Shown: positions 2,561 to 26,800 of the stretch, piece after piece
Layout of the letters: each line of letters begins with the position of its first letter
How positions within the stretch are numbered: position 1 is the stretch's first letter
DNA from: a bacterium
Lineage (GTDB): Bacteria; UBP14; UBA6098; B30-G16
Length of the DNA: 33,754 nt
NCBI GenBank assembly: GCA_021162205.1
Contig: JAGGZE010000107.1
Location: forward strand, 1 to 33,754
Reading direction: 5' to 3'
Notes under the pieces: model-generated
The model's input: only the letters and a program-made list of their open reading frames with translations
Database searches by the model: none
Told to the model about the DNA's origin: nothing
Translations under genes and position numbers: made by a program

Positions 2561-2580
2561 ATTGTTTAAACAGTATATAA

Positions 2581-2587: not shown

Positions 2588-2597
2588 TAAAAAAATA

Positions 2598-5500: not shown

Positions 5501-8500
5501 GGTTACCGTGATTTCCGATACAGAATTCGTGGCATTTTTCAACAGGCAGTTCGAACTCGATGTAATATCGGATTACGATTCCCCATGGGGCGATGGTTGG
5601 TATGATGAAGGAATCGAGGCAGAATTCGGTGTCGATAATTACGATTCTGTCGGTGGAATTAGATATATTTTCACTGGCTGGACTGGAACAGGCACCGGAA
5701 GTTATACCGGCACAGACACTTGCGATACGGTTATTATGGCTAATCCGATTATCGAGGAAGCTCACTGGGATGTTCAGTATAAGTTGAATCTGACATATAC
5801 AGGAACACCGATACCGCCGACACAGACAGGTTCGGGCTGGTATGATGCTGGCACTATGGCGGACATCTCGACAGATTCCATTCTCGGTGATGAAGGCACG
5901 GATACCGACTCGGTAAGATATGTATTCGACCACTGGCAGTCTATACCAGATGGTGCGGTTATCGGTTGTCCAAACTGTGCAAATACGCAAGTATTTATGG
6001 ACCAGCCATATAATTTGACAGCGGTCTATTTCACTCAATATAGATTTTGGGTCGATAACGATACATTCTCGGATACACTCGGCGCGCCGAATCCATCGGT
6101 CGGTGCACATTGGGTAACTTTTGGCGATTCGATTGCCGCTTATGTTATTTCACCTTATGATGGAATGTATTGCACTGGATACGATGGTGCAGGTTCGGTC
6201 GACCCGATTGGATATACCGATTCAATCGTATTTGTCATCGATGAACCATCGTCTATAAATTGGCATTGGGGAGACCAATATATTCTCGAGATTCACGCAG
6301 TCCTCGATGGTGTTGGCGGATATTCCGACTGGCTAATCACTCATCCATCGATGGGAGCATCGCCGATTGCTGGAAGCACTTATGTTACTCCCGGTGCCGA
6401 TGCCACAGTGAAACTTGCAAATACGATTTATAGTTTTCTCGGTCCGGGATGGCGCGATACTTGTTATGAATGGAGTGCCGAGGGTGCTCCTTGCGGTCCA
6501 TTGGATTCTTGCTGGGGAACTGGCGATTCCGTAACATTTGCTATGACAGAAAATACACTTTGGATTTGGCACTTCAAGCAGCAGGTTCAATTCACAATTA
6601 AATGCACGACTTCGACCGGCGGCGGATGCGGATACGATTCACCGAACCCGCCTTATGGCACGCTTTGGGTAGATTATATGTCCGACATAACCACTCATGT
6701 GGACTCTATCGACGGTTCTATGTATTGTGTAGGATATTACAGCACCTGGGGACCGGGTTACAATTATAATCCGACCTTTACAGTCAGCGGTCCATCTTGG
6801 CTCGCATGGCGATGGTATGACATTTCCGATATCGAAAGTCTTACAGTAATCTCGGAACATGGGCAATGGGGTTGTATTCCACCTGCAGGAGTTACTTATC
6901 TTCCGATCGGTGAGGTAGTCGATGTTCAGGCACCTTATATAGATGAACCCGAAACGCTCGATGGCACGAGGTTTATATGCACTGGCTGGACTGGAACAGG
7001 TTGTATACCAGCATCGGGAACAACGAATTACATTCCCGGTGGAGTTACGATTACGGAATCCGGCACAGTTACCTGGAATTGGCGCACCGAACATCGAGTT
7101 ACGATAAACAGCGATTACGATTCACCTGTTCCCGACACGGGTGACCATTGGTATCCCGAGGGTGCAGTATCGACCTGTTCGCTCACGACTATTACAGATA
7201 CCACCGATACAGGCACAACTGTGTATTGCACCGGTTGGCATCCCGATTTTCCCGGCGATACCTGTCTCGACCTCGGAATGATGGACACGACGAGTAATGG
7301 ACCGCTCTCATTCACTGTGAACTGTCCTGTTACTATAACCTGGAAATGGTGCGATTTTCTTGCTCCACTAATTGTGATTTCAGACCACGATTCACCGATA
7401 CCTGCACCGGATACAAGTTGGTGGATACCTGGAACGGAAATTACTGCATTCGTTACAAGTCCCGCAGATATCGATACCGATTACGGCGAGAGATGGGTTT
7501 GCACCGGCTGGACTGGAACAGGCGATGTTGTCCCTGCATCTGGAACAGGGACAGCTGTTACATTTACAATAGATGATACATCGACGATTACATGGAATTG
7601 GGGACAGCAATATAGATTGCATCTTACGACAAATACATATCCAACTGTAGTTTATGGAATGCCATCTCCGACAGTCGGCGATTACTGGTTCGATGTCGGC
7701 GATTCACAATATTGCAATACGAGGCCGACCGATTTGGATTCATTGGGTGATACTGTTTATTGTGTAGGTATTCACGGAACGGGCTGTGTGCCACTCGAAT
7801 GGCCTATGGTGGAAATTTGGATTCACATTACCGAGCCTGGAACACTTTCCTGGCAATGGTATCCGAGTGATACTGTTACAAGTTTAACTATTTATTCGGA
7901 TTATGACAGTCCGTTTCCATATGGTGTATCTTACTGGTTGCTCGGCGATACTGTCGATGCGGTTGTCGATGATTCGGTAATTGTCGGTCCAGATGTTATA
8001 AGTTGTATTGGCTGGCATGGCACAGGCGATTCACTGCCGACATTCGGCGATTCTACTCATGCTGTATTCACAATATGGACCGCTTGCACATTGACATGGG
8101 ATTGGTCCACTGTTTATCATTTCACTGTGAGCAATCCAACTGGATACGATACTCCACATCCACCTGTGGGCGATTATATTTATCCTGCTGGAAGTTATGT
8201 TTCCGGCTATGTCGAAGAACCTGTGTTTATAGATGCATTCTTGGATACGCATTGGTGTATCGGATATTATGGAACAGGTGATTTGGATTCGGTTTCACCT
8301 CAGACAGATTTCAATTTCTCGATTACGGAGAACTCGTCTATTCAATGGCGATGGGCTGATACTGTGGTTCATCTCGATGTGTATTCCGATTATGGCTCAC
8401 CGCATCCTTATGGGACGACATACTGGATACCTTCGACGAGTGTTCACGCCGATGTCGATGCGAATGTTGAAATCGGTGAGGGAATTCGAGCGAGCTGCAC

Positions 8501-10859
8501 AGGATTTGTCGGAACGGGTTCGGTGCCATCGTCGGGCGGAAGTAATTCGGTTAATTTCACGATAGACGAGAACTCGACGATAACTTGGCTTTGGGAAATT
8601 CAGTATCGATTTACTGTGAATTGTTCTACTATAGCGGTCGGTGGCAGTTGCGGCTATGATGCTCCAAATCCATCCTATGGCGACCATTGGTATAATGACA
8701 GTGCGTTGGTTTCCGGTATTGTAACCACGAATCCTGTTTATGTGGGACCTCCCGAGGATTCTATGTATTGTATCGGATATTTCGGCACGGGCGATTTGGC
8801 TGGCACAAGCCACCAGACGGATTTCGAGTTCGATATAACTCAACCGACATCGATTACTTGGATTTGGGCACCGGCGGACACTGTGGTTCAACTTATTGTC
8901 AATTCCGACCACGATAGCCCGATGCCTTATGGAACGACATATTGGTTGATAGGTCAATTTGTCGATGCTATGGTCGATTCGGTTGCATATAGTCCAGATT
9001 CGACTGAAAGGCATAATTGCCGTGGATTTGTATCGACTGGTTCGGTGGATTCTACCGATTCTTCTGGAAACACTGAATTGGCATTTATAATCGACAGAAA
9101 TACCGAGATAACATGGCTTTGGGATGACCAGTATTATATCACACTCGATTACGATGGATTACCATCTGGCTATGAACCCGTTCAAGTAGGTGCGGGCTGG
9201 TATTCTGCTGGTGATACTATATGGATCGAGACCGAAACACCTGTCGATTGCGGTCCCGATGGAATGTATGGTTTCTATCTCTGGACATATACGCCTCACG
9301 ACCCAGATGTTGTCGGCGATACGCTTATCAATGCGACTTCGTTGATTGTCGATAATAACTATACGCTTACAGCACATTATTCATTAGCATATCAAGTTGT
9401 TGTTCGCAAGAATCCCGACAGAAATAATGACGGATGGATTTTAATCGATACTTATTATCACGACAGCACCGATATAGTTGTCGATTGGTGGGGCGATGGC
9501 AGTTATCACGATATCGGCGTGCCATCGATAGATACTACCGCTTATGGACGAAGATACATTTTCGATAACTGGTCCGATGGCGGCGATACACTTCATAGAG
9601 TCGGTCCGATACATAACGATACATCGTTCACGGCATATTACACCGAACAAATTCTCGCTATTATCGCTAAAAATCCAGCTCACACTACTGGCTGGGTCGA
9701 TGTCGATAGTGTGAGATATTGGGACAGCACCTATGTCTATGGGACCTATGTGGAAACCACTTCTGTGAACTGCGATACATTCGGCGACCCGTTATCGCCA
9801 GATTCGGTGATTTGCGATACTCATAGTGTTATTGTGTGTGCCGATAGTGCGACAACTGGATGTAGCAGAGTTCTTCAGTTCTGGTGGTTGCCCGGATTTA
9901 CTCATACATTCGAGGCGAGCGATGCCGATTCGTTCTTTGCATCGAGTGATTCCGCGAGATATTTCTTCAAACATTGGGTATATAATTATGGGAATACAGA
10001 ATCCACGATGGTCAATGATACTATCGAAGAAACATATATCGCCACCGATACTATGGTCGGTCCTGGTTCATTTATTGCCCATTATATTTCGAAATGGCGA
10101 ATAAGTTTGTATAAAGTGCCACCAGAGACACTCGGGTATTTCCTGTTTTTCACTCCGACAGATACCGACACTGTATATGGTGAATCTCAATATAATTTCT
10201 GGTCGTTAGGCGATGAAAATGTTGTTATCGGTGTTTCCGAATTCGACATTCTCGATTTGGCGGGAGTAGCGAACGATTCTGTCTATGCATTCGACCGTTG
10301 GAGCGATGGCGGCGATTTGACCCACACTATAGGACCTATAACCGGTGCAGTGGAGGATACTGCTTATTACAATGGGGATGTTGCGGTTTTGGCGATATAT
10401 TTCGACCCACAAGAACCCGGTTCGCTTCAATATAATTGGCAATTAGATACACTCGACCCGGGCGAGACTCGAGCGATGGCTGCCGGTGATTCGTTTAAGG
10501 TTGTGAATGCAGGTAATGTTCCAATCGATATCGGAATCGAAGTATATCGAACTGTTCCATCGGGCTGGTTTGCTGCTTTCTATCAGGGACCCGATAACTT
10601 TATGCTTCTATGCGAATTCACCGACAATAATACTCCACCTATAACATTTTCACCTGTGCGCGATTATGTGAAAATGACTGTCGAATGGGCTAATGAAAAC
10701 AGATTCGGTGCTAAGGGATTTAACTTGCTTCCACCGCCATATCCTTATGAAGACCAAATGGATTATATCTGGCTGAAATTCCTTGCACCATCCAGCACAT
10801 CGATTATTGCTCAGATGCGAGTCGAGGTTATGGTCATAGCAAAATATAGAATGCCATAG
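2598..10859 (+). CDS. Giant secreted Asp-box / InlB-like beta-repeat protein
   Basis: The product is 2753 residues with a clear signal peptide (RR then the hydrophobic run FLFLLILFSFVGL, residues 2-16). Residues about 120-550 carry four Asp-box (BNR/sialidase-type) motifs: STDGGYTW at 167, STNGGGTW at 327, STDGGSSF at 439 and SEDGGVTL at 491. Each is followed by strands of the PxIAxDDxxNxxxAW kind, so this part is probably a beta-propeller. Residues about 985-2600 hold roughly 18 repeats of 80-90 residues, with hallmarks SDYDSPxPYGxxYW, WYxxG, CTGWTGTG and ITWxW; these resemble divergent InlB B-repeats. The last 150 residues (from about 2600) form another beta-rich domain that I do not recognise. 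There is no FlgD-like or gliding-type sorting domain, unlike the other giants here. The protein is likely an exported surface or matrix protein. The Asp-box fold alone does not prove glycosidase activity, and no catalytic residues were identified. A terminator follows at 10925. Confidence 0.85.
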   Translation: MRRFLFLLILFSFVGLNWSSTDTLIPDKHLSQNPKMFVPDANYKRPPTLSDLLMYAMKHKLHKTPLLPPRHLSPGIEKYFGALPVSILSAISENETNPPVKHFRSAPTSSFETMDYGGFDASDILASLPATDGQFQPSIATDDSGNVFATWTEEISSNNWAIKASRSTDGGYTWESAITVDGSGWNMMPQIAAFTMGAYTRTHITYQKVERHIYDIYDTTGTYLGQDTTYEGDIYYSRSNNTGASYSTHFAIANSDIDLIILHFNFDESYPDIAVDDANDVIIAYDSQASEGYLLSIATWILYIIITGGLPPFWWEYTWYIIDYKTSTNGGGTWSSEKQLVNDWFVDRWYPAIDVSGTGVSAKMFGTYAESGFLSLMSATTAMKEVTNPFYSPSVGDEVFVGDGYCVPGGLKIGNDGNPCSAITDDFSWDDYDVYYTYSTDGGSSFITPIAIDIGYHDSYEPRLALDDADNPFIAWTDAREGNYDIFCVWSEDGGVTLRDDQHRVNQDTWSDDQYWPGVSLFLSDCFRRLDIDWDDTRYDPDGDIYYNHVTWWRTNLNIRIHDTLANPMGGTVTLQYTSFGMPISRQIGEGDWIVYHDPFTNITVDGVSSGSNATERWVLNEALTDTTITVTSPCNNDTLIYYNQYYTTFTVTKGNPPACTHTPPPGINFTFQYFTGVEFGATDYTHWSNVHGIYSYTATVVITPSVERWHCPEPSGYVMSTTIAPTFYHQWNSNFETPDKQNPSSGECACTHTVPSFALIQRYVDGGNIGGATDLTSWTDCGSIYEYENPKVITTQQRWLITSDESAVVDGIGPYQPPVYHQWKPSIVLIGPSDSNTTCAESYWNGGVEYYETDLWGTYYPWVDCASRLKMCDFTTLGWVARDPTEFPCVTSAFMASIRYGNVVAVTLRNDFGYGFVIADGDTYSSPAVIGWAPASDHTITAVTPQEFGATRYVWDHWDDGGGVSHMVTVISDTEFVAFFNRQFELDVISDYDSPWGDGWYDEGIEAEFGVDNYDSVGGIRYIFTGWTGTGTGSYTGTDTCDTVIMANPIIEEAHWDVQYKLNLTYTGTPIPPTQTGSGWYDAGTMADISTDSILGDEGTDTDSVRYVFDHWQSIPDGAVIGCPNCANTQVFMDQPYNLTAVYFTQYRFWVDNDTFSDTLGAPNPSVGAHWVTFGDSIAAYVISPYDGMYCTGYDGAGSVDPIGYTDSIVFVIDEPSSINWHWGDQYILEIHAVLDGVGGYSDWLITHPSMGASPIAGSTYVTPGADATVKLANTIYSFLGPGWRDTCYEWSAEGAPCGPLDSCWGTGDSVTFAMTENTLWIWHFKQQVQFTIKCTTSTGGGCGYDSPNPPYGTLWVDYMSDITTHVDSIDGSMYCVGYYSTWGPGYNYNPTFTVSGPSWLAWRWYDISDIESLTVISEHGQWGCIPPAGVTYLPIGEVVDVQAPYIDEPETLDGTRFICTGWTGTGCIPASGTTNYIPGGVTITESGTVTWNWRTEHRVTINSDYDSPVPDTGDHWYPEGAVSTCSLTTITDTTDTGTTVYCTGWHPDFPGDTCLDLGMMDTTSNGPLSFTVNCPVTITWKWCDFLAPLIVISDHDSPIPAPDTSWWIPGTEITAFVTSPADIDTDYGERWVCTGWTGTGDVVPASGTGTAVTFTIDDTSTITWNWGQQYRLHLTTNTYPTVVYGMPSPTVGDYWFDVGDSQYCNTRPTDLDSLGDTVYCVGIHGTGCVPLEWPMVEIWIHITEPGTLSWQWYPSDTVTSLTIYSDYDSPFPYGVSYWLLGDTVDAVVDDSVIVGPDVISCIGWHGTGDSLPTFGDSTHAVFTIWTACTLTWDWSTVYHFTVSNPTGYDTPHPPVGDYIYPAGSYVSGYVEEPVFIDAFLDTHWCIGYYGTGDLDSVSPQTDFNFSITENSSIQWRWADTVVHLDVYSDYGSPHPYGTTYWIPSTSVHADVDANVEIGEGIRASCTGFVGTGSVPSSGGSNSVNFTIDENSTITWLWEIQYRFTVNCSTIAVGGSCGYDAPNPSYGDHWYNDSALVSGIVTTNPVYVGPPEDSMYCIGYFGTGDLAGTSHQTDFEFDITQPTSITWIWAPADTVVQLIVNSDHDSPMPYGTTYWLIGQFVDAMVDSVAYSPDSTERHNCRGFVSTGSVDSTDSSGNTELAFIIDRNTEITWLWDDQYYITLDYDGLPSGYEPVQVGAGWYSAGDTIWIETETPVDCGPDGMYGFYLWTYTPHDPDVVGDTLINATSLIVDNNYTLTAHYSLAYQVVVRKNPDRNNDGWILIDTYYHDSTDIVVDWWGDGSYHDIGVPSIDTTAYGRRYIFDNWSDGGDTLHRVGPIHNDTSFTAYYTEQILAIIAKNPAHTTGWVDVDSVRYWDSTYVYGTYVETTSVNCDTFGDPLSPDSVICDTHSVIVCADSATTGCSRVLQFWWLPGFTHTFEASDADSFFASSDSARYFFKHWVYNYGNTESTMVNDTIEETYIATDTMVGPGSFIAHYISKWRISLYKVPPETLGYFLFFTPTDTDTVYGESQYNFWSLGDENVVIGVSEFDILDLAGVANDSVYAFDRWSDGGDLTHTIGPITGAVEDTAYYNGDVAVLAIYFDPQEPGSLQYNWQLDTLDPGETRAMAAGDSFKVVNAGNVPIDIGIEVYRTVPSGWFAAFYQGPDNFMLLCEFTDNNTPPITFSPVRDYVKMTVEWANENRFGAKGFNLLPPPYPYEDQMDYIWLKFLAPSSTSIIAQMRVEVMVIAKYRMP
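5550..10400 (+). repeat. About 18 tandem InlB-like coding repeats, partly as alternating pairs
   Basis: Repeat starts fall near residues 985, 1065, 1147, 1225, 1330, 1412, 1500, 1588, 1672, 1759, 1838, 1922, 2003, 2096, 2179, 2265, 2350 and 2498 of the giant protein. Between about 1330 and 2180 two subtypes alternate: one with GYDxPxPxxGDHWY and one with SDxDSPxPYGTTYW. Short near-identical DNA stretches persist: GGCTGGACTGGAACAGG occurs at 5676-5692, 6984-7000 and 7506-7522. Confidence 0.75.
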
Positions 10860-12510: not shown

Positions 12511-15288
12511 TTATTTTTTTATCATCTCATCTATTTCGATAACGACTCTTCGATTTATACTTCTGCCCTCGGGTTTGGAATTATCACCGATTATTACTTT
12601 TTCAAAATCGCCATTTCTATATCTTTCGATTGTGTATGGCTGTGTATCTCTTTTGCCAGTGCTTTTAAGTTGAGTATTATTCCTTTTAAGCCATTGGTCC
12701 AATTCGAGGTCGGAATCGAGTCCGAGAATAAATCGCATCATATTTCGCAGGTATTTGAGTTCCTTTTTGCCACGAATTTCCGATAGTCTCTGATTTCGTA
12801 TCGGAGTGCCGATTATATCGGTATTCCCTGTTAAGCGAACTATAATGCTATTATCAGGGATTTGAGATTTATCGATAATCAAACGAGCGAATTCCTCGAG
12901 TCTGCTTTCAAGATATTTCGATTCGGTAACAGCTTCATCGAACGAAAATTGCACAACAATCGACGATTCGATTCTGTGTTCCCATTCCTCGACAATAACC
13001 CATATCGGATCCGAAATGATATGATATTTCTGTCCGAGTTCATCGGTCAAATCGAGAATGATACGATAAGTTCCTCTCGGGTCGATTAAATTTCCATTGT
13101 CATCGCGCCAATTCCATACGACCTGCGATGGAGGAGGACCATCACCAGCAGCAAATATCCGCACAGTATCGTCGACATCTTCATTTATTGCAAATATTTT
13201 ATATCGATTCACACTTTCGGGATTATTTACCGAAATAATGATAAGATTGCGGCGAACATCGTCGGGAATTTTGAATTCCTTTGCAACTTCAGCTTGCTCG
13301 ATAGGTTTGAATATTATCTTTTCAGCAGATAACCAAATTCTAACCAGGGCTTTTTTAGCATCGCCCTCGCCGAGCGATATCGGAATTCGTTCGAGTGGGC
13401 AGAAAACCTGAAGTCTCGGTAGTAAATATTTCCTAACGATATCTAAACTTAGCAGAACATCGACAGGGTCGTCATCATAACCTGGAATGCCCTCGACTAA
13501 AATTACTGCACTATGGTCGGAACACAAGACACCTGCAAGTTTTTCTGCAATAGTGTCGAGAACTTCACGATTTTTCTTCGGAATATCCTGCGAACCTGCT
13601 GGAAGTTGAAATTCATACACCATAAGTGGAATGTTTTGGAAACGAGCCGACATTTCTACTCGACGGTTTTCCTCAGCAATCATTCGTTTTTCCTGCAATG
13701 ATATATTTTCACTTGTCAATGAAATTCTCGGAGCAGTCGGATTATATTCAGCGGTATCGATTTTGACAATCGACGATGGCGGCACACCCAATCGGATTAA
13801 CTTTTGCGCAACAGAATCCATTCGTGTTACCGCGTAGTCGAGTTTTTTATTATCGCTTTCGGGGTCGATATAACCTTTAAGCTCGATAACGACATCGGGG
13901 TTCGATTGAAGTCGCTGAGCGATTATCGAAAGCATCGTATCGAACCTTTCATGGACAATTGTCGAACTCGAATCGAAAAATACCACAGGGACAATCGGTT
14001 CATCCTGACGAACAAAAGTAACCGTCGGGATAGAGAGAACTTGAAGAAGCGGCGAAATGGAAACAATAAGTTTTCCAAAAACAAGTAAATTATGGTCGAT
14101 ACGGTTATCATCTTCCTGTGATTCATCGAGTTCCCCAAAAATTCCAGGGAAATGTGAACCATCGTCATCAGCAGTGAAAATAAGTTTATATGAACCGGGA
14201 TGAGGAGGCAGCCAGATAAATTGTGCGAGATATTCCTTTCCCTGTTTAAGTTTTGGCACAGGTTTTGTCCCGATTGATATTGTTTCATCTTGAGCTACTA
14301 CAAATAGGGAAATCCAAGCGCTATCCGATTCGGTTTCTGAGCGATTAACAACAGCGGCACTGAAATAAGCTGTGTCGACAGTCCAAAGGTCTGGAAGTTC
14401 ACCGGGTTCCACGACAAGGTTCGTTTTAGGAGTAGGTGGGGGCTTTATATGTGGGAAAAGAATATCGATTCCTATAGAATGCGATGTCATTTCAGGCGAT
14501 GCAACATCCTGCGATGCCGTATGATAACCAGCTTCGTATCTTGTCCATATTCGTTCGAGAACAATCGGTGCAGAAAGATTTGCTCTAATAGCATTTTTCT
14601 CATATCCTGCCGATATACCCCAGCCGTTATGTCTCCAACCTAAACCGATAGAGGGATATAACTTGTCGGTTTTGCCATCGAATAGACCGCCAATCCACGG
14701 ACTAAATTGCCCGATTTTGCATTTAAAGATACAATTTGCCGAAATCGGTTCATCACCATCGGCGGAATTTAGCAGTGAAAGATTTGGAGAATAAAGATTT
14801 TCACCCCATAAATTTAATGTGAAATTTTTATAATGTGCAAAAATTCCTGCATCGGTGAACGGAGAGAATTTTGAATTTCCCTGCGCAAAAACCTCATCGC
14901 TGAAATCGAAATTATAGAAATTAGCTGTCGAATAACCGATTCGAGCGATACCGGGTGCGAGCCAAATTCTGCTCCATAATTTACCAAATCTGATACGCGG
15001 AGCGATATAATAAAATTTACCGAATTGAGTAGTCAGATATTGATTGCCAGTATGGTCGATGGACAAACCGAATGAACCGAATTTTTTATCTCCGATAAAA
15101 ACCCGAATATTTGCAGTGTGCAATTGGTCACCTACCGAAAGAAACGGTTTTGAAAACGATGCCGAGATGAAATATTTAAAATTCCCATAACTAATTGGCT
15201 CATACGGGTAATCGAGAATATTGCTCTCACTGCCAAATGCCGCAGTGATAAGTGTAGCGATTATAAATATTTTAAGATATATTTTCAT
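12511..15288 (-). CDS. PorP/SprF-like outer-membrane barrel fused to CARDB-like and three OmpA-like modules
   Basis: The product is 925 residues. A signal peptide (cut near 19, TAAFG) leads into a beta-barrel region (about 20-280). Strand patterns such as FGLSIDHTGNQ, FSPFTDAGIFAHYKNFTLNL and IGLGWRHNGWGISAGYE resemble PorP/SprF type IX secretion barrels. A CARDB-like adhesion domain (about 285-405) follows. Then come an OmpA-like module (430-548, with PVVFFDSSSTIV and ENRRVEMSA), a degenerate second one (552-665), a FlgD-like Ig strand pair (about 720-768, VVWNWRDDNG) and a C-terminal OmpA module (778-920). The last keeps D824 in GNTD and R839 in NQRLSEIRG, spaced as in peptidoglycan-binding OmpA proteins, plus NRRVVIE. 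It should span the outer membrane and grip the wall. It is the last gene of the locus, 92 bases after its PorV-like paralogue, with which it shares everything but the barrel. The barrel family is less certain than the OmpA parts. Confidence 0.85.
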   Translation of the reverse strand: MKIYLKIFIIATLITAAFGSESNILDYPYEPISYGNFKYFISASFSKPFLSVGDQLHTANIRVFIGDKKFGSFGLSIDHTGNQYLTTQFGKFYYIAPRIRFGKLWSRIWLAPGIARIGYSTANFYNFDFSDEVFAQGNSKFSPFTDAGIFAHYKNFTLNLWGENLYSPNLSLLNSADGDEPISANCIFKCKIGQFSPWIGGLFDGKTDKLYPSIGLGWRHNGWGISAGYEKNAIRANLSAPIVLERIWTRYEAGYHTASQDVASPEMTSHSIGIDILFPHIKPPPTPKTNLVVEPGELPDLWTVDTAYFSAAVVNRSETESDSAWISLFVVAQDETISIGTKPVPKLKQGKEYLAQFIWLPPHPGSYKLIFTADDDGSHFPGIFGELDESQEDDNRIDHNLLVFGKLIVSISPLLQVLSIPTVTFVRQDEPIVPVVFFDSSSTIVHERFDTMLSIIAQRLQSNPDVVIELKGYIDPESDNKKLDYAVTRMDSVAQKLIRLGVPPSSIVKIDTAEYNPTAPRISLTSENISLQEKRMIAEENRRVEMSARFQNIPLMVYEFQLPAGSQDIPKKNREVLDTIAEKLAGVLCSDHSAVILVEGIPGYDDDPVDVLLSLDIVRKYLLPRLQVFCPLERIPISLGEGDAKKALVRIWLSAEKIIFKPIEQAEVAKEFKIPDDVRRNLIIISVNNPESVNRYKIFAINEDVDDTVRIFAAGDGPPPSQVVWNWRDDNGNLIDPRGTYRIILDLTDELGQKYHIISDPIWVIVEEWEHRIESSIVVQFSFDEAVTESKYLESRLEEFARLIIDKSQIPDNSIIVRLTGNTDIIGTPIRNQRLSEIRGKKELKYLRNMMRFILGLDSDLELDQWLKRNNTQLKSTGKRDTQPYTIERYRNGDFEKVIIGDNSKPEGRSINRRVVIEIDEMIKK

Positions 15289-15380
15289 TTCTAAAATTCA
15301 AATATCAAAATTCCACGCAACACAACAGGTCTGAATAAATAGGGGGAAAAGTTGCTAACTGGAATGGAGTTAATTTTCTT

Positions 15381-18299
15381 TTAATGAAAATGTTTAATAA
15401 TTTCATATTCTAATGCAACTCGTCTATTGATAAATCTTCCCTCGGGATAATCGTCATCCCCTATAAGAACATCGCGGAAATATCCTCTATCCCAAATTCG
15501 AACCTTATATGGTTTAGAATATCCATATCCTTTCGCATTGATAGAAACATTGTGTTCGCCAAGCCATGCATTCAATTCAGTTTCGTTCCTCAGTTTTAGC
15601 AAGAATTTTAGGATATTTTTCATATTACGGTCCTCTCGTTTAGCTCGCTGAAGACTCAATCGTTGATTGGCCTCGGGACTTCCGATAATATCGGTGTGTC
15701 CCCCGACGATAACTTTGAAAATAGTTTTCCGTTGAACAGCTTTTTCGATAAAATCCGATGCAATTCGCTCCATTCTGCCTTCGAGATAGGGAGATTGCGG
15801 GAATGTTCCGCCGAAAGTGAAATTGACGAGTATGAGTTCCTGACGCTTTTCTTTCCGCGTAATTTTAATTTTTACAGGGTCGGATTCTGATTCGAGAATC
15901 TGTCCAACATTGTCTTTAATATATAGATAAGCATAGTAGTTTTTATTAGGTTCGGGCGGTTCGCCATCGTTTCCATGCCAATCCCATGGGATTTTATCGG
16001 GTGGATAGCCTCTGCCCGATGCAAGAAGTTTAAATTCGGTCATATCATTATCGACAATAGCGATATAATATGAATCCACTCCTGCATCCACTCGAAGTCC
16101 GGTGAGACTGATTTCATTTCGCTCACGAGCGGCTACCTGAAAACCCTGAGCAGCTCTGGCTGAACCCCTTGGACGATATATCACCGCATCACCGCTGATA
16201 TGTATCGCAACCATATCTACACTATCAGGTGCCGATGCATAAACCATCATTCTATTCGCAGTTCGTTTGGAAACCAATTGACCAGCATAATTTCGCACTT
16301 TCAATGCTCTATCCATAGACCTATCCCATCTCGCACTATCCTCGTGTGAACTCATCCCATGAAAAAGAATTATTACATCGGGATTTTGTTCGAGTAAATT
16401 CTTTGTCAATTTCATCGAGTTCTCTATTTCGATTTTTCCCTCGGGTGGAATATCTGTCTCGCCGATTCGATAATTGACGCAACATATCAAAATCGAATCT
16501 GGAAAATCGATAACTTCTGTTCCAATTTCGACACGGCGGTTTTCCTGAGCAATCATATTTTCATAAGCGCTTGTTTTTCTACGATTTCGCTTGCCGGCAC
16601 GGGGTTGTGTATAATCATATTTTGAAGCATCGACAACTATTATTTGCCTTTCTGAAACACCAAGGTTCATTAAATATCTTTTTAAGGATTGTGCTCGTGC
16701 ATTTGCAAGGTCGATAAGGTTGGGAATTTTATCCTGTTCGGTAACTTTATCGACATATCCTTTCAATATAAGAGCAACATTAGGATTTCTCCCCAATCTT
16801 TTAGCAACAGTTTGCATCGATTGCAAAAATCTATCGGGAACAATAGTGTCGGTTTCATCAAAAAATACAAATGGAGCCATCGGCACTTCTTCTCGGATAT
16901 AATTGATTTCAGAAAGCTTTAAGACACTTTTAAGCAATTGTGGATTCTTTTCGAGTGTCGGTGAATTAAATGCTGGAACTCTGAAACTTGCGATATTATT
17001 TTTTGAATTCACATCTGGAAGTGTTCCCTCACGCACTTTCCCTTTATCTGAAACATCATCGACCGAAACATAGACATCATAATAACCTTTTTTAGGTGGT
17101 GCCCAATCGAAGTCTAAATTTAATGTCTTTTCACCGGATAATTCAGAAATTTTTCGCTTCTCGATTAGTCCATAGTTGCTGTCTTCATCGAAATAGTAAG
17201 TTCGAGTATAGAATTTTTTAGCATCATCCTTGCCAAGATTTGCGATAACCGAATGAATAATCCCGAGTGAATCTGGTTGCAGGATTTTAGGTTCTGTCGA
17301 AAGACTTTCAGCGAATACAGCGAGGTCGATTTCTTTAGGTGGTGGAATTGGGAAACCATATACGAGCGAAAACTTATGATGTGGATGTCCTGAAATCTCT
17401 CCCTGTGGAAGTATTAAAGCATAATCGAAACCGAAATTGTGTTTAGCTAAACTTCGGAATCCGAAACCGAGATGCAAAGCACCCTTACCGCCTTCGCCGA
17501 TATTCATATCGTATCCGCCGCGAATATGAAGTTTTCTCTCGAGCAATTGTCCCTCGAGACCAAAACAAAGTTTCATCGGGTCTTGAAGAGTCGCCGAGCG
17601 AATCGGCATATCCAAATCCATCGCACCGACAATAAAATCGCGATAAATATATGAAAAACCTGTTCGCATTCGTCTCGGTAATGCTCCAGCAGGGTCATCG
17701 CCGATTGCGATATTCGGTTCGTTCAAGTCGGATAATTTAAGTCCCACAGTTGCATTATTTATCTTAGCGAAAACATCGATTCCACCGCTGAATGCCATTT
17801 TGCTCGTTCCATTGTTCCAAAGTGGGTCGTTGGGGTCGTCGCCGTGAAGAGTATCGTAAGTGGCATTATCGAGATTATAACCGACTCTGTAAAGGTCGGC
17901 TGTTAGTGCGAGTCCTAAAAATCCATTCACATTTTCAAATTTCATCATTTTCCTGCCGAAAGAAAACGATAATTTCATCTGCGAGAAAATATCCTGATAG
18001 AAATATGAACCTGCCAATGAATATACATAATGTTTTCCTGGAATAGGTGAAAAGAAAAAAGTGCCTTCGGAAATCGAACCGACATCTAATCCTGCAAAGA
18101 ATTTTGTATATGCAGCGGAAAGTTGCATTCTTTTAGATAAAAATAATCCAGCAGGATTTGTTGCCGCACCATAAGCCTCGTCGGCGAGTGCAACCTCGGC
18201 ATTGCCCATACCGGCACTTCGCACACTTTCGAGCTGCACACCCGTCTGGGCGAATACATAAACGCCAAAAAATAATATTAAAATTATAGACTTTCGCAT
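15381..18299 (-). CDS. PorV-like outer-membrane barrel fused to CARDB-like and three OmpA-like modules
   Basis: The product is 972 residues. A signal peptide (about 1-18, VYVFAQ) precedes a PorV/PorQ (UPF0164)-type barrel (about 20-320), marked by the signature RSAGMGNAEVALADEAYGAA followed by TNPAGL (27-52). A CARDB-like domain (about 323-441) follows. OmpA-like module 1 is at 475-595 (FVFFDETDTIV, GYVD, ENRRVEIG), a degenerate module at 600-720 lacks the aspartate, and a FlgD-like Ig pair (about 768-812, IPWDWHGNDGEPP) comes next. The C-terminal OmpA module (823-965) has GHTD with D870, NQRLSLQRA with R885, and NRRVALE. The C-terminal module probably binds peptidoglycan. In Bacteroidetes, PorV receives the sorting domain of cargo at the outer membrane, so the barrel here may serve the neighbouring giant proteins (inference). 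AGGAG precedes the ATG. Paralogous to the next gene downstream. Confidence 0.87.
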   Translation of the reverse strand: MRKSIILILFFGVYVFAQTGVQLESVRSAGMGNAEVALADEAYGAATNPAGLFLSKRMQLSAAYTKFFAGLDVGSISEGTFFFSPIPGKHYVYSLAGSYFYQDIFSQMKLSFSFGRKMMKFENVNGFLGLALTADLYRVGYNLDNATYDTLHGDDPNDPLWNNGTSKMAFSGGIDVFAKINNATVGLKLSDLNEPNIAIGDDPAGALPRRMRTGFSYIYRDFIVGAMDLDMPIRSATLQDPMKLCFGLEGQLLERKLHIRGGYDMNIGEGGKGALHLGFGFRSLAKHNFGFDYALILPQGEISGHPHHKFSLVYGFPIPPPKEIDLAVFAESLSTEPKILQPDSLGIIHSVIANLGKDDAKKFYTRTYYFDEDSNYGLIEKRKISELSGEKTLNLDFDWAPPKKGYYDVYVSVDDVSDKGKVREGTLPDVNSKNNIASFRVPAFNSPTLEKNPQLLKSVLKLSEINYIREEVPMAPFVFFDETDTIVPDRFLQSMQTVAKRLGRNPNVALILKGYVDKVTEQDKIPNLIDLANARAQSLKRYLMNLGVSERQIIVVDASKYDYTQPRAGKRNRRKTSAYENMIAQENRRVEIGTEVIDFPDSILICCVNYRIGETDIPPEGKIEIENSMKLTKNLLEQNPDVIILFHGMSSHEDSARWDRSMDRALKVRNYAGQLVSKRTANRMMVYASAPDSVDMVAIHISGDAVIYRPRGSARAAQGFQVAARERNEISLTGLRVDAGVDSYYIAIVDNDMTEFKLLASGRGYPPDKIPWDWHGNDGEPPEPNKNYYAYLYIKDNVGQILESESDPVKIKITRKEKRQELILVNFTFGGTFPQSPYLEGRMERIASDFIEKAVQRKTIFKVIVGGHTDIIGSPEANQRLSLQRAKREDRNMKNILKFLLKLRNETELNAWLGEHNVSINAKGYGYSKPYKVRIWDRGYFRDVLIGDDDYPEGRFINRRVALEYEIIKHFH

Positions 18300-18444
18300 A
18301 TTTCTCCTCTCATCGAGAATTTTTATATGTCAATATTTCAAAATTCTTTCAATTTTCAAAGTTATTTCGAGGTGATAAAATAAACTATCTTAAAGGCATT
18401 CCAATACGATAAAATCACCACCGAAAAATCGAGATATTTCCCAT

Positions 18445-21400
18445 CTATCTTGCTATCACAATCGTTCCCTTGCAAATATTTTTTCCGCCCGATTCGACCG
18501 TATAAATATAAGGTCCCGCCGGTGCAAATTTCGAATGCAAATCAATTCCATCCCATTTTACGATATAATCGCCCTCGAGTCTTCTGACTAATGCACCATC
18601 GATAGTAAATATTTTAACTACAATCGACCTGTCCGAAAATACTTTGAATGTTACAAAATCGTTGAAACTATCACCGTTTGGAGTGAATGTTTTAGGCGAT
18701 ACCGAACATCCACTTTTCATCGGCAGAAACCAGAAACAGTATTCATCCATAATATTCGGCAATCCAAGATTTGTATTCTTATCGGCACAAAGCACACATA
18801 CATCGACCGTATCCGAAGAAGAAATATGAATTCCAGCGGCATCGAGGTCGAGTATAGCCCGTGAACCATCGTAAGTCGAAGCGTAATTGTCGTATTCGAT
18901 AAATAAATTGTCCACCTGAAACACAATCGAATGCGGGTCGACACCGATACCATCATCGGTAAGTTCGACCACGATGTTCTGCGGAATATTCTGAACAATA
19001 CCGTTCGGATTAGCATTTCCACAAATCGGTGGGCTGAAATCGCATATAAAATAAGATGATAACTGTGTCGAGAGACCGATTTCATCATAGGCGGTCAATT
19101 CCAAACGCACAGTGTCGCCATCTTGCCATTCCTGCGATGGATGAAAACGAATCGTATCGCCAGAATTCGTTAAACTCGAACTGTTTATATGATAATCGAT
19201 ATCGTTTATCGACAAGTTTGCTGCCGACCAATCGATTTCATTTTCGCCGATTACCTTTATCACAATGTCCTGTAATGGATTATGAGTGAATTGCCCTCGA
19301 GGCGGTTCGATAATAGTCGCTGTAGGTTCAGCACCGGGAACAGTGAAATTCCAACATACCCGCGAACTTCTGGGTTCGCAGATGTCCGGTATATCCGAAG
19401 CGGTTATGCAAACCTCGATATCGCCGAGTATATTTGCAGGCAAAGCCATTATTAATGTGTCTCCCTGCCAATTTAATAATGTATCTGGAATGTATGAATT
19501 CCCATTGAATTGAACCATAACATCGCTTCTATTCACGCCGGTGTAATCGTCATCGATGATAGCGATAATCGAACTTCCAGAACCGACCTGTTCATCGGGT
19601 GCGGGATATATCGGCAAAATAGTCGGTGGAAGTGCATCGTATAAAATCGGGATGAAAACAGTTTCATCGAGTGCGATTCTATGTGTGTTATCGACAATAT
19701 TCCATACTGTTAATGTGTTCACGCCGGATGTTAGGAAATTTGCTGAAATCGGAATGAAAATAGTGTCCGATAAATCGTTGCTCAGAAGAGCATTCTCGGC
19801 GATTGCACAGTGAATAGATGAAAAATCGATTGCAAAATTTGAATGGAAAATTAATTTGGCATTCACAGTATCGCAGGCGGAAACACCATTCGGTGCGGCA
19901 AGTTCCCACCAGAAATCGGGATGAAAAACGAAATAGTTCCACGATGTATCCAAAATATTCGAGCAAATATAAGCATTATCATTCAGGTGAATCGCACAAA
20001 AAATACTTTCGCTATCAGCGATTCCCGCCAGCGTAGGATTGAAAATTAGTGTATCGCCGACATAATCGAGAGCATCGTCGGCAATCGTGTAAAGGTCGCC
20101 ATTAACAAGAAATGATATACTCATCCAATCGATACCCGAAAGTGTATCCATCACAACAATTTTCCAATCGTCTGAAATATCGTAAAGTTCGGTATCGGGA
20201 GATGGCGAAATGAATCTAACAACTGGGGGTGTTCTATCGACAGAAAAGTCGAATGTATCGGATGAACCGAACCCTAAAATGTCGTATCCCGATAGAATAA
20301 TTTCTATATGTGAAATATCGGAAGTGTTCACGCTGAAACTCACCGTATCGTCGAGCCAATGGAATATAGCATCGCTGGCGGAATGAAGTGAACCGTTTAT
20401 ATTTATTATCGAATGAGTTCTATCGAAACCATCGGGGTCGAACCATAAGATTTTGATTTCCTGTTCTGCGCAGCCGATAAACGAATCACCCGGCGGTGAA
20501 ATCACTGCCGATGCAGGTCCGCTTTGCTCGACAAAAAATCGAACACAACTATCGATAGCATTGGGTGTGCATTCCGACACATTATCTACAATGTGAGCAC
20601 ACACGGTCAGCGTATCGCCATCGAGAGCGGATAGCCAAAACGCCGATGGGACAAAAAAATGCAAGCCATCGTAACCCATTTCATCGGGATATATCATCGT
20701 ATCGCCATCGCAAACTATAAAACTTCTATCGGGTGAAATTCCGCTGACATCATCGATACAACCGAATACAATGGATTCCGAACCTGTCAATACTCCCGAT
20801 GGCAATAGCGATAAAATTCTCGGCGGATTATGGTCCACAGTAATATAAACACTCGTTCCAATAGAGATTTCGTTCCCCCAGCTATCCGCAATTCCACCGA
20901 TTTGTATCGAAATATCACCGCTTGGGATATCGAGCGATGAAAACTTAAAAATAAGCGTATCGCCATAAAGACTTAAATTGTGCGAATCGAGACTATATCT
21001 TGTGCCATCGTATTCTACCCAAGCCGAATCGGCATCGACACCCTCATCATCACGAATTAACATAATGATATTTATCGTATCACAGGCGGAAACTCCCTCG
21101 GGATTAATAAGGATAATATCGGGTGGAGTGCATGGAATCGCCATCGAAAAAGCTAGTGTATCGAGATAATTCGCACCGCAAAGTTGTGCATTATCGTTTG
21201 CAAAAATCCACATCGACAAATTTGAACACCCATGAAAATCCAATCCAATATCTCCCAATGTGATAGCAAGATTATGTCCATCGAATATCACTCCCGATGA
21301 ACTCGAATAGACGACCGTAGTGTCCCCGTCGAATGCGATGCGAACTCCAATCGATGCACTGTCCACGCCAGAAACTGCATCGTCCAATGTATATGTCAGC

Positions 21401-23229
21401 ACATCGTATGGTGAAGTTAAAGTTAAAATCTCTGCACCAGCAGATAATTGCGGTGGTGTTCTATCGATAGTGTAATTCCAGTCGATTTCATTCGACCTGT
21501 TCAATTCATCAACAGCATCGAAATGTATATTATGCGAGCCATCGGAAAGCCCAGATGCGAAGGAAAATACCGTATCTCCACGAACCGCAAATGGAATTGC
21601 TGTGCCATCGATTTGCAACGATGACATATCTATCGAAAGTCCAGCAGGGCAACTCACAAGCATTTTAATCGTATCTTCATCGCAGCTCGAAATCGCATCG
21701 GGAGAAGGATTTAAGATTGTTATTTCAGGTGCAGAAGGCATCTCGACCATGAAATCTATCGCAAACGGTTCGGATTCGCAGCCATAAATATCATTTACAT
21801 TAGATATTTCAATATGATGTGAACTATTCTCGAGACTAAGCAGATGAATCGACATAATAGAGCCATCCCAATTGTATGAAATAGGTGAACCATCGAGCAT
21901 TACCACTGCCGATGTTATGTCTATTCCGCTTTCATCATCGATAGATAAATTTATTGTAAGCGTATCGTAGATAACAGGCGATGGGAGCGGTGAAATCAGC
22001 GAAATATTCGGCGGTGAACCATCTGGTGCGGTTATCGTTATTTCTCGTTCAATCGATGTCGAGGAATATCCGGGTGTCGTCAGTTCGATACTTAAAGTGC
22101 CAATTTGTGTCGAGGCATCCGGTGCGACAGCGATATTCCACGATGCAGTGCCTATCATATCGGGAAAAACGATACTCGGAGTAATCGGCCGATTACTGTC
22201 ACCGACAATATTCAAGAATGACGGTGTTCTCAACGATGCTATCGCTCCACCGATTGTATCCTCGGGAGAGACGAACAGTGTGATAACGAAACTGTCGGGA
22301 GAAAAACCATCGCAGTCGGCAGGACGAATTTGTTCGGGATAAGTCAGAGACATAGATATTTCGCCGAGAGTTCTATCTGCAACACCGATACCATAATATG
22401 TTACAATCGTTCGATAATTCCCCGGTGAAAGCACTATGGGATTCCATCGCAGCAGAACTGCGCTATCGCTGAACAATCCGCCGACAAATGTGTAATCCCA
22501 TTCGATAGAATGATAGTTCCAGAAATTGCCATAGATTAAAACATCGGGAGGAGTGGCTTCCGCACCGATTATAATTCCTTGACCGACAAGTTTATTCGGC
22601 GGCTGAAATGGATTTTGCTCGAATGCCTGCCAGAACGATGGCACATCGTCGACAAATTCCTGTTCGGATTCGAAATATCCCAGCGGTGTTGCAATCGGAG
22701 CACAATCGTTTGTGCCAATCATCGTATCTAAAAATAGAAGCAAGCCGACACTATGAGCGATTGCATCGGTATTTTCGATTCGATATTCGATTTTAACCTG
22801 TGGGTCTGCTCCGACATAAATTGGAACGAGAATTTGAGTGAATTCGACTCCACCAACAGACCAGGATGTGATAATAGAATCGCCGACTCGATGTGGCGTG
22901 ACAGTGATAGGTGCGGGAAGTGGATGCCCTGCGATAGTATCGTCATAATTGCCCCAAATAGCGCCATCGACATAGAAATGTGTATGCGATGTTTGTGCAC
23001 TGAACGGATAACCGAAAAGCAGAGATTTCCCGCCAGCAGTGCCGATAGAAAATATCCCCGAACTCTCGGTTATTGCTCCGACACTGTCGTTCTGCGTGCG
23101 GACAATCATAGATTTTGCAGCAGAGGTTCTATATATATCGATTTTTCTGCTCGCACTATCCTGAGCCATAACAATACCGCAGCTCGATATTAAAATTAGA
23201 ACGATTATTTTAAAATTATTCGAACTCAT
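18445..23229 (-). CDS. Large secreted protein with alternating Ig-like modules and gliding-type C-terminal domain
   Basis: The product is 1594 residues. A signal peptide (KIIVLILISSCGIVMAQ) opens an N-terminal domain (about 45-300) shared with the 2984-residue protein; shared marks are SVGLLLFLDTMIGT, VPSFWQ, ATPPD and VTYYGIG. From about residue 405, eleven Ig-like modules of about 100 residues follow; after the first they alternate between type A (xxCDxxxI, DxxGxD, ending FxxDxxPP) and type B (DxxSGVD, ending C-x-PN...C-W-x-F). The last 87 residues (CSVSPKTFTPNGDSFND, VKIFTIDGALVRR, KWDG, GPYIYTV) are a gliding-motility-type (T9SS type B-like) sorting domain. The protein is likely exported and displayed on the surface, perhaps as an adhesin. 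The frame extends to a TTG at 23256 overlapping the lipoprotein stop, but the ATG at 23229 has GGAGA just upstream and an immediate signal peptide. It lies 23 bases after the lipoprotein gene. Confidence 0.85.
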   Translation of the reverse strand: MSSNNFKIIVLILISSCGIVMAQDSASRKIDIYRTSAAKSMIVRTQNDSVGAITESSGIFSIGTAGGKSLLFGYPFSAQTSHTHFYVDGAIWGNYDDTIAGHPLPAPITVTPHRVGDSIITSWSVGGVEFTQILVPIYVGADPQVKIEYRIENTDAIAHSVGLLLFLDTMIGTNDCAPIATPLGYFESEQEFVDDVPSFWQAFEQNPFQPPNKLVGQGIIIGAEATPPDVLIYGNFWNYHSIEWDYTFVGGLFSDSAVLLRWNPIVLSPGNYRTIVTYYGIGVADRTLGEISMSLTYPEQIRPADCDGFSPDSFVITLFVSPEDTIGGAIASLRTPSFLNIVGDSNRPITPSIVFPDMIGTASWNIAVAPDASTQIGTLSIELTTPGYSSTSIEREITITAPDGSPPNISLISPLPSPVIYDTLTINLSIDDESGIDITSAVVMLDGSPISYNWDGSIMSIHLLSLENSSHHIEISNVNDIYGCESEPFAIDFMVEMPSAPEITILNPSPDAISSCDEDTIKMLVSCPAGLSIDMSSLQIDGTAIPFAVRGDTVFSFASGLSDGSHNIHFDAVDELNRSNEIDWNYTIDRTPPQLSAGAEILTLTSPYDVLTYTLDDAVSGVDSASIGVRIAFDGDTTVVYSSSSGVIFDGHNLAITLGDIGLDFHGCSNLSMWIFANDNAQLCGANYLDTLAFSMAIPCTPPDIILINPEGVSACDTINIIMLIRDDEGVDADSAWVEYDGTRYSLDSHNLSLYGDTLIFKFSSLDIPSGDISIQIGGIADSWGNEISIGTSVYITVDHNPPRILSLLPSGVLTGSESIVFGCIDDVSGISPDRSFIVCDGDTMIYPDEMGYDGLHFFVPSAFWLSALDGDTLTVCAHIVDNVSECTPNAIDSCVRFFVEQSGPASAVISPPGDSFIGCAEQEIKILWFDPDGFDRTHSIININGSLHSASDAIFHWLDDTVSFSVNTSDISHIEIILSGYDILGFGSSDTFDFSVDRTPPVVRFISPSPDTELYDISDDWKIVVMDTLSGIDWMSISFLVNGDLYTIADDALDYVGDTLIFNPTLAGIADSESIFCAIHLNDNAYICSNILDTSWNYFVFHPDFWWELAAPNGVSACDTVNAKLIFHSNFAIDFSSIHCAIAENALLSNDLSDTIFIPISANFLTSGVNTLTVWNIVDNTHRIALDETVFIPILYDALPPTILPIYPAPDEQVGSGSSIIAIIDDDYTGVNRSDVMVQFNGNSYIPDTLLNWQGDTLIMALPANILGDIEVCITASDIPDICEPRSSRVCWNFTVPGAEPTATIIEPPRGQFTHNPLQDIVIKVIGENEIDWSAANLSINDIDYHINSSSLTNSGDTIRFHPSQEWQDGDTVRLELTAYDEIGLSTQLSSYFICDFSPPICGNANPNGIVQNIPQNIVVELTDDGIGVDPHSIVFQVDNLFIEYDNYASTYDGSRAILDLDAAGIHISSSDTVDVCVLCADKNTNLGLPNIMDEYCFWFLPMKSGCSVSPKTFTPNGDSFNDFVTFKVFSDRSIVVKIFTIDGALVRRLEGDYIVKWDGIDLHSKFAPAGPYIYTVESGGKNICKGTIVIAR
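18709..22016 (-). repeat. Ig-like A/B module array of the 1594-residue protein
   Basis: Residues about 405-1507 hold eleven diverged modules. B modules end with paired cysteines in motifs such as CTPNAIDSCVRF and CEPRSSRVCWNF; A modules carry a lone cysteine near their start (SSCDEDT, SACDTIN, IGCAEQE, SACDTVN). Identity is at protein level only; no near-identical DNA repeats were noted. Confidence 0.7.
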
Positions 23230-23872: not shown

Positions 23873-26800
23873 CTATCGAGCCAGCACGAGTGTTCCAGTG
23901 CAAATCACCTCGTCGCCATCCTTGATAACATATAGATAAACTCCAGGTCTGCAATCGTTGTCGTCGCTATCTTTGCCATCCCAGCTATATGAATGAGCAT
24001 CGCCGACATTTATTTTCTGAAGTTCGACACCCTGCATATCATAAATGAAAACGGTAGCATTTCGGAATACCATCTTCGGGAATTCGATATAAACATTATC
24101 ATTCGAGCCATCATTGTTAGGTGTGAACGGATTCGGATGTGAACGGCATACAAATTCTGCGACAATATATTTCGGGCAAAATAGCGAATCTGCAATACAA
24201 TTCGCACCGCATCCTCGAGAATTATCACAGGCGTTGGAAATAACTATCCAGACAGAATCCTCATTCTCGATAGCGATATATGGAAGCATAGGAATTATCA
24301 AAGTCAGTTTGCCAGATGGTTCATCGTAGGAAACACCGTTATCGCCGATTGTATATGAATTGATATAATCGTAGGATGTCGGATTATATATGCCATTTTG
24401 AAGATGTTTGCCGACTATCTCGATTCCAATACTATCAGGATTAACACCCGCGAGTTCATCGGTTATATCGATATTCACAGTATCGAATTGGTCGATATAT
24501 AGATTAGTGTCATCGTAACAATGCTCATAATAAACAATCGGCGGCATCCAATCGATTGTGAACGAGTATGTATAAATCGAATCTTCCGATAGAGCATTTT
24601 CCCATATATTTCCGAAAATATCCGCCCAATGCCATACTCTGACATTCACAGTATCGCCATTTTGCCAGCAGTTATCAGGAGTGAAATGAAGATATGTAGT
24701 GCCCGGCATAGAAATCGCTCCTGTGAAAGATATTTCGGGACTGCTAAGTGTATCGAATGGATATTCGATACCATTCACCTCGAGAGTTCCTGGTATCCCA
24801 AGAATTCCACCAAAGATATCGAAACCATCATAATCGTGGAAACCGATTATAAGTTCTTGATTATCGCAGGTGCAGGAATAGAACCAGCCATCCCGAGGGT
24901 TATCAGCCCAGATACTCGGAGCGTCGATATCGTGGAAATAGCAACTTTCGCAAACAGAATATGCCTGCGTTCTGTCGAATGTGGTATCGAAATCGAAATC
25001 GTTGTCGTAAGCATAGACTATATAATACACCCAGGTTCCAACATCGAATAGCGGGAATGCTCCCGGCATAGTTTGTGCGGTTCCACCGAAGTCATCGCCC
25101 GCGGTATAATCGAGTTGCACGATTCCCACATAATTCCCCGTAGATAAATCGGGACAACCAGCAGTATCGTATACGAGGAAAATCCCTTGTCCATTTGTAT
25201 CGGTGGCATCGTCGTATATTCCAGATGTATCCCACAGCGAGCAGGTAACAAAGAAATCGGATGACATCGCAGGCCAATTGCAAGTATCGGAAACTAATAT
25301 TTCGGGACCTGTCGAATCGTCATCGCCGACTGTGAAACACCAACCGATGATATTATTGTTCGCAGGACATAGCACCGTATCAGTGCTGTCCTGAACATTC
25401 AGATAAATGCAATATTCGTGAAATTCGTGCCACAAACTATCGATTTGAATATGAATAGTAGAATCCGAATTGTCATACCACAATTGAGTAGAATCCCATT
25501 CAAAAGTGAACAATGGATTCCCATTATCTGTTATCAATACACTAATTGCATTCGTATCTAACCAACTAACCGAATCCCAAACCTGTGCGGAAATATGCTG
25601 ACTCCAATCGAAAACGACCTCGCCATCGGTGGGAATAAAGTTGTCGCCGACAGGTGCGGACAAATCCACTATGAATGTCAATTGCGCAGGAAATCCTGGA
25701 TTGAACAAAGTATCCAATACTTGAGCGAGTGTAACTTGGACAGTTTCACCATTTGTGAACGATGTCAGTGGCGGAACGATTATGGTGTCGCAATGTATGC
25801 TATCTAAACTATCGATAATGTGTGTAATTAAAGCCATATTCGAGATATGACCGGCATCGAACGAATCGATAGTGCCATCGCCGTGCTGAATATAAATTAT
25901 CAAACTATCGAAAAGCACACCCTGGCTGTCGCATAATTCGATTATAATATTTTGGTCGGCGCAAAATGTAGTTGTAGAATCCCATGGAATAATAAACTCG
26001 GCTATCGGTCCACCCTGAGGTAATTTAAATATGAAACATGTATCGGTTGTCCAATTCGGTCCGCAGGTATCCGGCATATCTGCGATGGAATCGAGACAAA
26101 CCTGCACAGAATCACCACCTGAAAATTCGAGACCATCGAGGAATAATGTATCACTTCCAGTATTCCAAAACATTGCAGGGTCTGTAATTCTGTATGTGGT
26201 CGATGTCCCACCGATGATATTTACAGTTACAACGGATGTCGTAGTATCTATTCGACTTAAGTCATCGAAATAGAACCAGATTGTAGGATGCGGGTCGAGT
26301 ATAATTCCCGATGGATATTCTGCCAAAATCGATGGCCCCGACCAATCGATAAAAAATGTATAAATAGTCGAACTATCGGTCGGATTGCCGAGAGCATCCT
26401 CGATATGAATAATTTGCACATAAATCGTATCGCCATCGGTGAATAAAGCGGGCGGTGGACCGAATATCAATGTATCCTCTATATAGCTTATCGCACCCGA
26501 TACATCGTCGTATATCACAGGAGTTCCAGTATCACCGATTTGCAATGAAACTTGCGCATTCGAATGTCTCAATCCCATCGTCGTATAGCAACTCCATTCG
26601 ATTACAAACGAATCGCAGGCGATTGTAGCGCTGTCTCTATCGGGTATAATCAATGTTGGAATTGGTCCAGAAGTGGCACTTACAATATATTCCCAGCAAG
26701 TCGTATCCAAATTGATATAACCCGCGCAGTTCGGATTATCAGCCACAATTATACAAACAGAATCCGTATCGCCAGCAAGAAATGTATCGTATGAAACACT

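Follow-up and report, generated by a model that had tools for sequence, protein, structure and literature searches.

In the Bacteroidota, type-B substrates of the T9SS depend on cognate PorP/SprF-like shuttles, often encoded directly downstream, and stay bound (PMC12618676; PMC9143113). For those whose operon includes a homologue of PorE, a protein composed of TPR, propeller and OmpA parts (PMC9143113), a static position on the wall has been suggested (PMC12618676; PMC9143113). The locus described here, from a bacterium assigned to UBP14, appears to join the two roles in single polypeptides. We suggest, at a probability of roughly 0.73, that its proteins P0002 and P0001 are dedicated type-B shuttles with a PorE-like wall tether built in, serving the giant proteins encoded upstream, which would be exported by SprA. 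A shuttle with a built-in tether is the simplest reading because the barrel is the same, the gene order is the same, and the wall-binding module sits on the same polypeptide. More broadly, the outer-membrane barrels that in this uncultured phylum most probably capture and retain giant secreted proteins at the cell surface are fused to predicted wall-binding modules.

The window, that is, the whole stretch of DNA analyzed, is 33,754 nucleotides long and makes up all of contig C143 of a 2.57-Mb draft genome. On the minus strand, transcription runs through murI, P0004, P0006, P0003, P0002 and P0001, with successive gaps of 73, 173, -4, 145 and 92 bases, a spacing consistent with an operon (Table 1). 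The preliminary description of this DNA had the open frames right, save that position 23229, the upper limit given, is an internal ATG of P0003, whose frame reaches 23256; it had also placed two giants directly upstream on the same strand, which is so, with P0004 lying outside the interval it covered (12511-23229) and P0006 sitting between the giants. A Pfam search found no family match for P0006, and among the fetched regions a homologue occurs only in G003. On the plus strand, positions 2562-10859 encode a 2765-residue giant that has BNR-like modules, ~YSDYDSP..G modules in many copies, a secretion-type N-terminus and no recognized C-terminal sorting domain (CTD), and a gene fragment at the contig edge (22-258) carries a type-A CTD (Por_Secre_tail).

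Table 1. Genes and predicted domains of the shuttle-cargo locus, in window coordinates
Feature	Position	Strand	Description and basis
P0001	12511..15288	-	925-aa paralogue, architecture as P0002; orthologous group B; tandem after P0002
P0001 OmpA module 3	12526..12960	-	~aa 777-921; aligned to P0002, invariant Asp and Arg present
P0001 OmpA module 1	13765..13980	-	aa 437-508; PF00691 7.1e-8
P0001 CARDB	14074..14421	-	~aa 290-405; PF07705 3.4e-4, below cut-off; profile matches to CARDB structures
P0001 divergent 14-stranded barrel	14449..15180	-	~aa 37-280; AlphaFold2 model, Foldseek, profile match
P0002	15381..18299	-	972-aa barrel-CARDB-OmpA-OmpA-Ig-OmpA fusion; orthologous group A
P0002 OmpA module 3	15393..15836	-	~aa 822-969; Foldseek Pal, OprF, PorE C-terminal domain 6top
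P0002 Ig-like (FlgD-like) domain	15882..16121	-	~aa 727-806; between OmpA modules 2 and 3; model beta strands
P0002 degenerate OmpA-like module 2	16194..16484	-	~aa 606-702; model secondary structure
P0002 OmpA module 1	16512..16925	-	~aa 459-596; PF00691, model
P0002 CARDB	16971..17327	-	~aa 325-443; PF07705; Foldseek 3idu, TMt 0.72-0.79
P0002 plug helices and 14-stranded PorV/PorP-type barrel	17340..18236	-	~aa 22-320; family matches, AlphaFold2, Foldseek
P0003	18445..23256	-	1603-aa Ig-repeat giant, presumed cargo
P0003 type-B C-terminal sorting domain	18448..18732	-	last 95 aa; CHU_C 1.7e-5, TIGR04131 6.8e-6
P0006	23253..23699	-	148-aa predicted lipoprotein between the giants; overlaps start of P0003 by 4 bases
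P0004	23873..32827	-	2984-aa acidic giant, 90 cysteines, presumed cargo
P0004 type-B C-terminal sorting domain	23876..24160	-	last 95 aa; CHU_C 5.2e-10

That two adjacent paralogues, of 972 and 925 residues, carry barrel and wall-anchor modules on one polypeptide was recognized at the outset and is borne out. Pfam detects OmpA and CARDB domains in both (the CARDB of P0001 below cut-off); of the three OmpA modules originally counted, the second is degenerate, and what had been called a FlgD-like Ig pair is a single Ig-like domain in the P0002 model, one that Pfam does not recognize. The AlphaFold2 model of P0002 (mean pLDDT 76.5) runs from plug helices through 14 strands, a CARDB-like sandwich, OmpA module 1, module 2 and the Ig-like domain to OmpA module 3, and the model of residues 1-405 of P0001 (pLDDT 77.5) also contains 14 strands. 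With an even number of strands the chain would end in the periplasm, like that of SprF (PMC12635249). Unlike the N-terminal part of PorE, P0001 and P0002 have no TPR or beta-propeller domains by Pfam.

The N-terminal regions are predicted to be FadL-family 14-stranded barrels related to PorP and PorV, with family scores below the curated cut-offs, as expected at such distance. Among NCBIfam models, P0002 has a match to PorV_fam at 7.5e-11 and a lesser one to PorP_fam at 8.8e-6, and P0001 matches PorP_fam only, and weakly (0.0039), all of them below cut-off; the best PorP_fam (TIGR03519) score in the genome is 62.8 bits, against a curated cut-off of 90.55. The nine matches to that model in the genome include all seven fusions found there, and the best six are fusions; P0001 ranks eighth, behind an unfused 289-residue barrel on C43 that follows a 1069-residue protein with a CHU_C-type C-terminal domain. 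In the alignments, PorP_fam is matched by 19 of 22 and by 23 of 23 members. Searched singly against the PDB, P0001 and P0002 match OmpA-type domains only; reaching PorV required profiles, and that of the P0001 barrel finds F. johnsoniae PorV at 1.1e-8. By its sequence the P0001 barrel appears very divergent, and this counts against our explanation.

The barrel models are of moderate confidence (pLDDT 76-78, TM ~0.5 to PorV). For P0001, the top two Foldseek matches are PorV (8gl6_F and 6h3i_F; F. johnsoniae PorV), with FadL below; for P0002, FadL comes first and PorV (8gl6_F) third, followed by CARDB, Pal, OprF and the PorE C-terminal domain (6top). Structure prediction, proposed earlier as a check, thus gave 14 strands in each N-terminal region with PorV among the best matches, and the assignment of both barrels to the PorV/PorP type stands. 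The sharper contrast first drawn between them, one PorV/PorQ-like and the other PorP/SprF-like, is soft, since most paralogues match both families, and for the same reason we rejected a functional split between P0002 and P0001 along those lines. The top match of P0002 does lend something to the idea that the fusions are ordinary FadL-type channels, or OprF-like wall tethers, whose proximity to giant genes is incidental. Although a FadL-like match had been named as grounds for refutation, it does not serve as such, since the literature places PorV and PorP themselves among the 14-strand barrels of the FadL family (PMC9143113).

Sorting domains had been claimed at the ends of both giants, and type-B CTDs are found there by matches to CHU_C and TIGR04131, the latter matched by P0003 and P0004 below its cut-off. 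With CHU_C, P0004 scores 39.8 bits, above the cut-off, and P0003 scores 25.3 bits in hmmscan, just below the cut-off of 27, and above it in the genome scan. A type-B model of this lineage, built from 16 sequences, gives 86 bits for P0003 and 115 bits for P0004, both of which are seed sequences of that model. P0004 has a Lys plus Arg content of only 1.7%, and from its composition it is possibly a disulfide-rich, very acidic filament.

In OmpA module 3, all 86 family members examined keep Asp870, Asn878 and Arg885 (P0002 numbering), and we take the Asp and Arg to be the counterparts of those with which OmpA binds diaminopimelate. Across the same 86 proteins, Arg535 of module 1 is invariant and Asp517 mostly kept, and the ligand residues of module 2 are without conservation. 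The fusions, then, end in an OmpA domain with predicted peptidoglycan-binding residues, like a PorE-type wall tether.

Seven fusions occur on six contigs of this genome, and the genome-wide search for further barrel-OmpA fusions that had been called for shows them to be present throughout the phylum: a profile of the seven has 5-11 matches, mostly full-length, in each of 17 out of 17 phylum genomes (12 genera, 4 families). In a sample of 290 genomes taken at all distances, no genome from outside the phylum shows the full architecture, and a search of ~85,000 species for a single conserved motif returned 34 loci, titled only as unclassified MAGs, UBP14_UBA6098 and Zixibacteria 4484_93. A type-B gene lies immediately upstream, on the same strand, of 47 of the 77 informative fusions (86 have neighborhoods), against 54 of the 476 other genes in these regions, which are themselves enriched; orthologous loci among the 77 are not independent, a binomial p value for the count is therefore not to be read literally, and the strength of the linkage rests on the pattern by group. 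Fusions of groups A to E nearly always follow a type-B CTD gene directly (11/11 informative cases in A, 8/12 in B, 12/13 in C, 4/5 in D and 10/10 in E), and for 46 of 46 linked CTDs the type-B score exceeds the type-A score. Among the unlinked cases of group B, an overlapping spurious frame hid the cargo gene in G014, the fusions of G004 and G008 are one gene away from a type-B giant of 3813-4023 residues, and the G009 contig breaks off after the start of the matching giant. In these last three genomes (L188 in G004, L187 in G008, L189 in G009) the stretch from murI to the group B fusion lacks both giants as well as the group A fusion, and a type-B giant of 3.8-4.0 kaa, cut by the contig end in G009, follows a His-phosphatase gene.

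The linkage of fusion and cargo is not chance, and it weighs heavily against incidental proximity. In control regions of the genome, 0 of 91 genes exceed 31 bits with the type-B model, against at least 51 bits for linked cargo; the adjacency is conserved across many genera in all four families, and it mostly recurs in other phyla despite unrelated C-terminal fusions. The genes ahead of group G are PilM-like, pseudopilin-like and ComEA-like instead of cargo, which favors an ordinary channel or tether; on balance we nonetheless consider it very unlikely that the fusions as a whole are such proteins. The architecture alone nevertheless does not mean "cargo shuttle," because groups F (0/10) and G (0/9) are never downstream of type-B cargo, and groups H and I, with the same architecture, are mostly without an upstream type-B gene. 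The expectation that fusions always co-occur with giants thus largely holds across the phylum for the five groups A to E, and fails for F and G. On C115 (L039:7740-13294) the group G fusion ends a run of ComEA-like, pseudopilin-like, PilM-like and PilN-like genes, an arrangement that recurs in several phylum genomes.

The fusions might instead be general parts of the T9SS, anchoring the secretion machine to the wall, in the way suggested for PorP-PorE and the PorK/N ring, rather than receiving particular cargo. Group F (C48) has the wide spread and slow evolution that such a part might show, and in no case does it follow type-B cargo; small amounts of PorK and PorN come down with the P. gingivalis PorP-PorE pair (PMC9143113). 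A machine part, however, would need no copy per cargo operon, and here there are several paralogues per genome, five groups of which stay beside a type-B giant; as an account of the fusions at large we find this improbable. Group F by itself (L035:9151-12126 and orthologues) is found phylum-wide, in most cases with a secreted-type protein of 575-963 residues downstream, and by analogy it might be the counterpart of a general PorP-PorE machine anchor. Type-B cargo genes without an adjoining fusion also exist in this genome (contigs C147, C2, C124, C93, C51, C72, C76, C86 and C44), which counts against our explanation; several of their CTDs resemble in sequence those of C22 and C154, and shuttles might be common to them.

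The nearest barrels outside the phylum come from seven genomes (loci L176-L186). A type-B CTD gene lies directly upstream of L176-L180, L182 and L183, its CTD also matching TIGR04131, mostly below cut-off, and no directly upstream type-B CTD gene was seen at L181, L184, L185 or L186. The C-terminal additions of these barrels range from none (L177, L178, L179) through TPR (L176, L180, L185) to coiled coil plus OmpA (L182, L183) and two Ig-like domains plus OmpA (L186). In a tree of the barrels, those from other phyla form a separate group. Because L182 and L183 nest there among unfused, cargo-linked barrels, their OmpA domain would have been gained separately, and the fusion of barrel and OmpA appears from the tree to have arisen separately in at least one other lineage. 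L182, L183 and L186 resemble P0001 and P0002 in combining a PorV/PorP-type barrel with a C-terminal OmpA domain, and L182 and L183 also in their adjoining type-B genes, but all three are without CARDB and have a single OmpA module. The OmpA module of the L186 barrel-Ig-Ig-OmpA fusion (13385-15532) has TC where TD is usual. At L185 (13339-17430), the gene that comes after a barrel-TPR gene encodes a beta-propeller-OmpA protein; the pair looks like a split PorE with the TPR part joined to the barrel, because PorE consists of TPR, propeller and OmpA (PMC9143113). SprA-like proteins occur in these genomes too, mostly as weak matches.

The T9SS core had been proposed as a further search, and in the window's genome it yields the SprA/Sov translocon (622 bits, contig C31) and leaves GldL/GldM (PorL/PorM) without a match. 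For the latter (TIGR03517 and TIGR03513) no match in this genome is convincing, unrelated control genomes matching at the same loose threshold; divergent GldL/GldM could escape these models. Of the "self-contained export or display module" first envisaged, the export part finds no support: SprA is encoded on another contig, so the module, which has no translocon, would serve capture and display rather than self-contained export. On C76 (L044:6409-11248), a PorV-family barrel with TPR precedes one TolQ/ExbB-like and two TolR/ExbD-like genes, a possible energizer for the T9SS.

Could the complexes be mobile, with the OmpA modules riding an internal track as SprF does and the giants acting as gliding adhesins? 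F. johnsoniae SprB-SprF is such a moving pair of type-B giant and barrel (PMC12635249). SprF, however, is coupled through a Cys-X-Cys C-tail, whereas the fusions end in OmpA modules and have 0 to 8 cysteines after residue 28, and neither GldM nor GldL was found in the genome; we regard movement as the least probable of the alternatives. A wider proposal, doubtful as yet, is that the phylum has a T9SS without recognizable GldL/GldM in which nearly all PorP-like shuttles are riveted to the wall, one per giant operon, for fixed display, with a separate origin in at least one other phylum.

In the shuttle-tether explanation that we prefer, the giants would cross the outer membrane through the SprA translocon of the genome, and the cognate barrel would take up the CTD of its giant, retaining it at the cell surface. 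The barrel's predicted periplasmic C-terminus would bear the CARDB, OmpA and Ig modules, the last OmpA module, and perhaps the first, binding peptidoglycan, and each giant would thereby be fixed at one place on the wall. One polypeptide would thus do the job proposed, for static type-B proteins of the Bacteroidota, for a PorP-like barrel and a separate PorE-like tether. Secretion by SprA, the contacts of CTD with barrel and of OmpA with peptidoglycan, static display and the pairing of each shuttle with its giant are all steps that we infer.

Static anchoring of type-B proteins by a barrel and a PorE-like tether is so far only a proposal (PMC9143113; PMC12618676), and we found no described barrel-OmpA shuttle fusion in the open-access literature. 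Natural fusions beside type-B cargo, phylum-wide and separately evolved elsewhere, are strong genomic evidence for a barrel-tether complex; they extend type-B shuttle logic past the Bacteroidota and provide single polypeptides on which the proposed anchoring complex becomes testable. PorV (PDB 6h3i, 8gl6), the nearest solved T9SS structure, shares the barrel fold of P0001 and P0002, but it serves type-A cargo generally and has no OmpA fusion. F. johnsoniae SprB-SprF (PMC12635249) likewise pairs a type-B giant with a dedicated barrel that has a coupling periplasmic C-tail; in SprF this is a short, moving Cys-X-Cys peptide with a bond to GldK, whereas in P0001 and P0002 it is a region of ~650 residues predicted to bind the wall. 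Fjoh_3952-3951-3950 of F. johnsoniae (PMC12618676) presents the same order of giant type-B gene, cognate SprF-like shuttle and proposed wall tether, but in three genes, with static anchoring still a proposal, where the present locus uses two. The P. gingivalis PorP-PorE-PG1035 system (PMC9143113) has in common with it a FadL-family barrel holding a surface type-B CTD protein and a wall-binding OmpA-type domain; there PorP and PorE are separate proteins and PorE employs TPR and a propeller, whereas P0001 and P0002 are fused and employ CARDB, Ig and extra OmpA modules.
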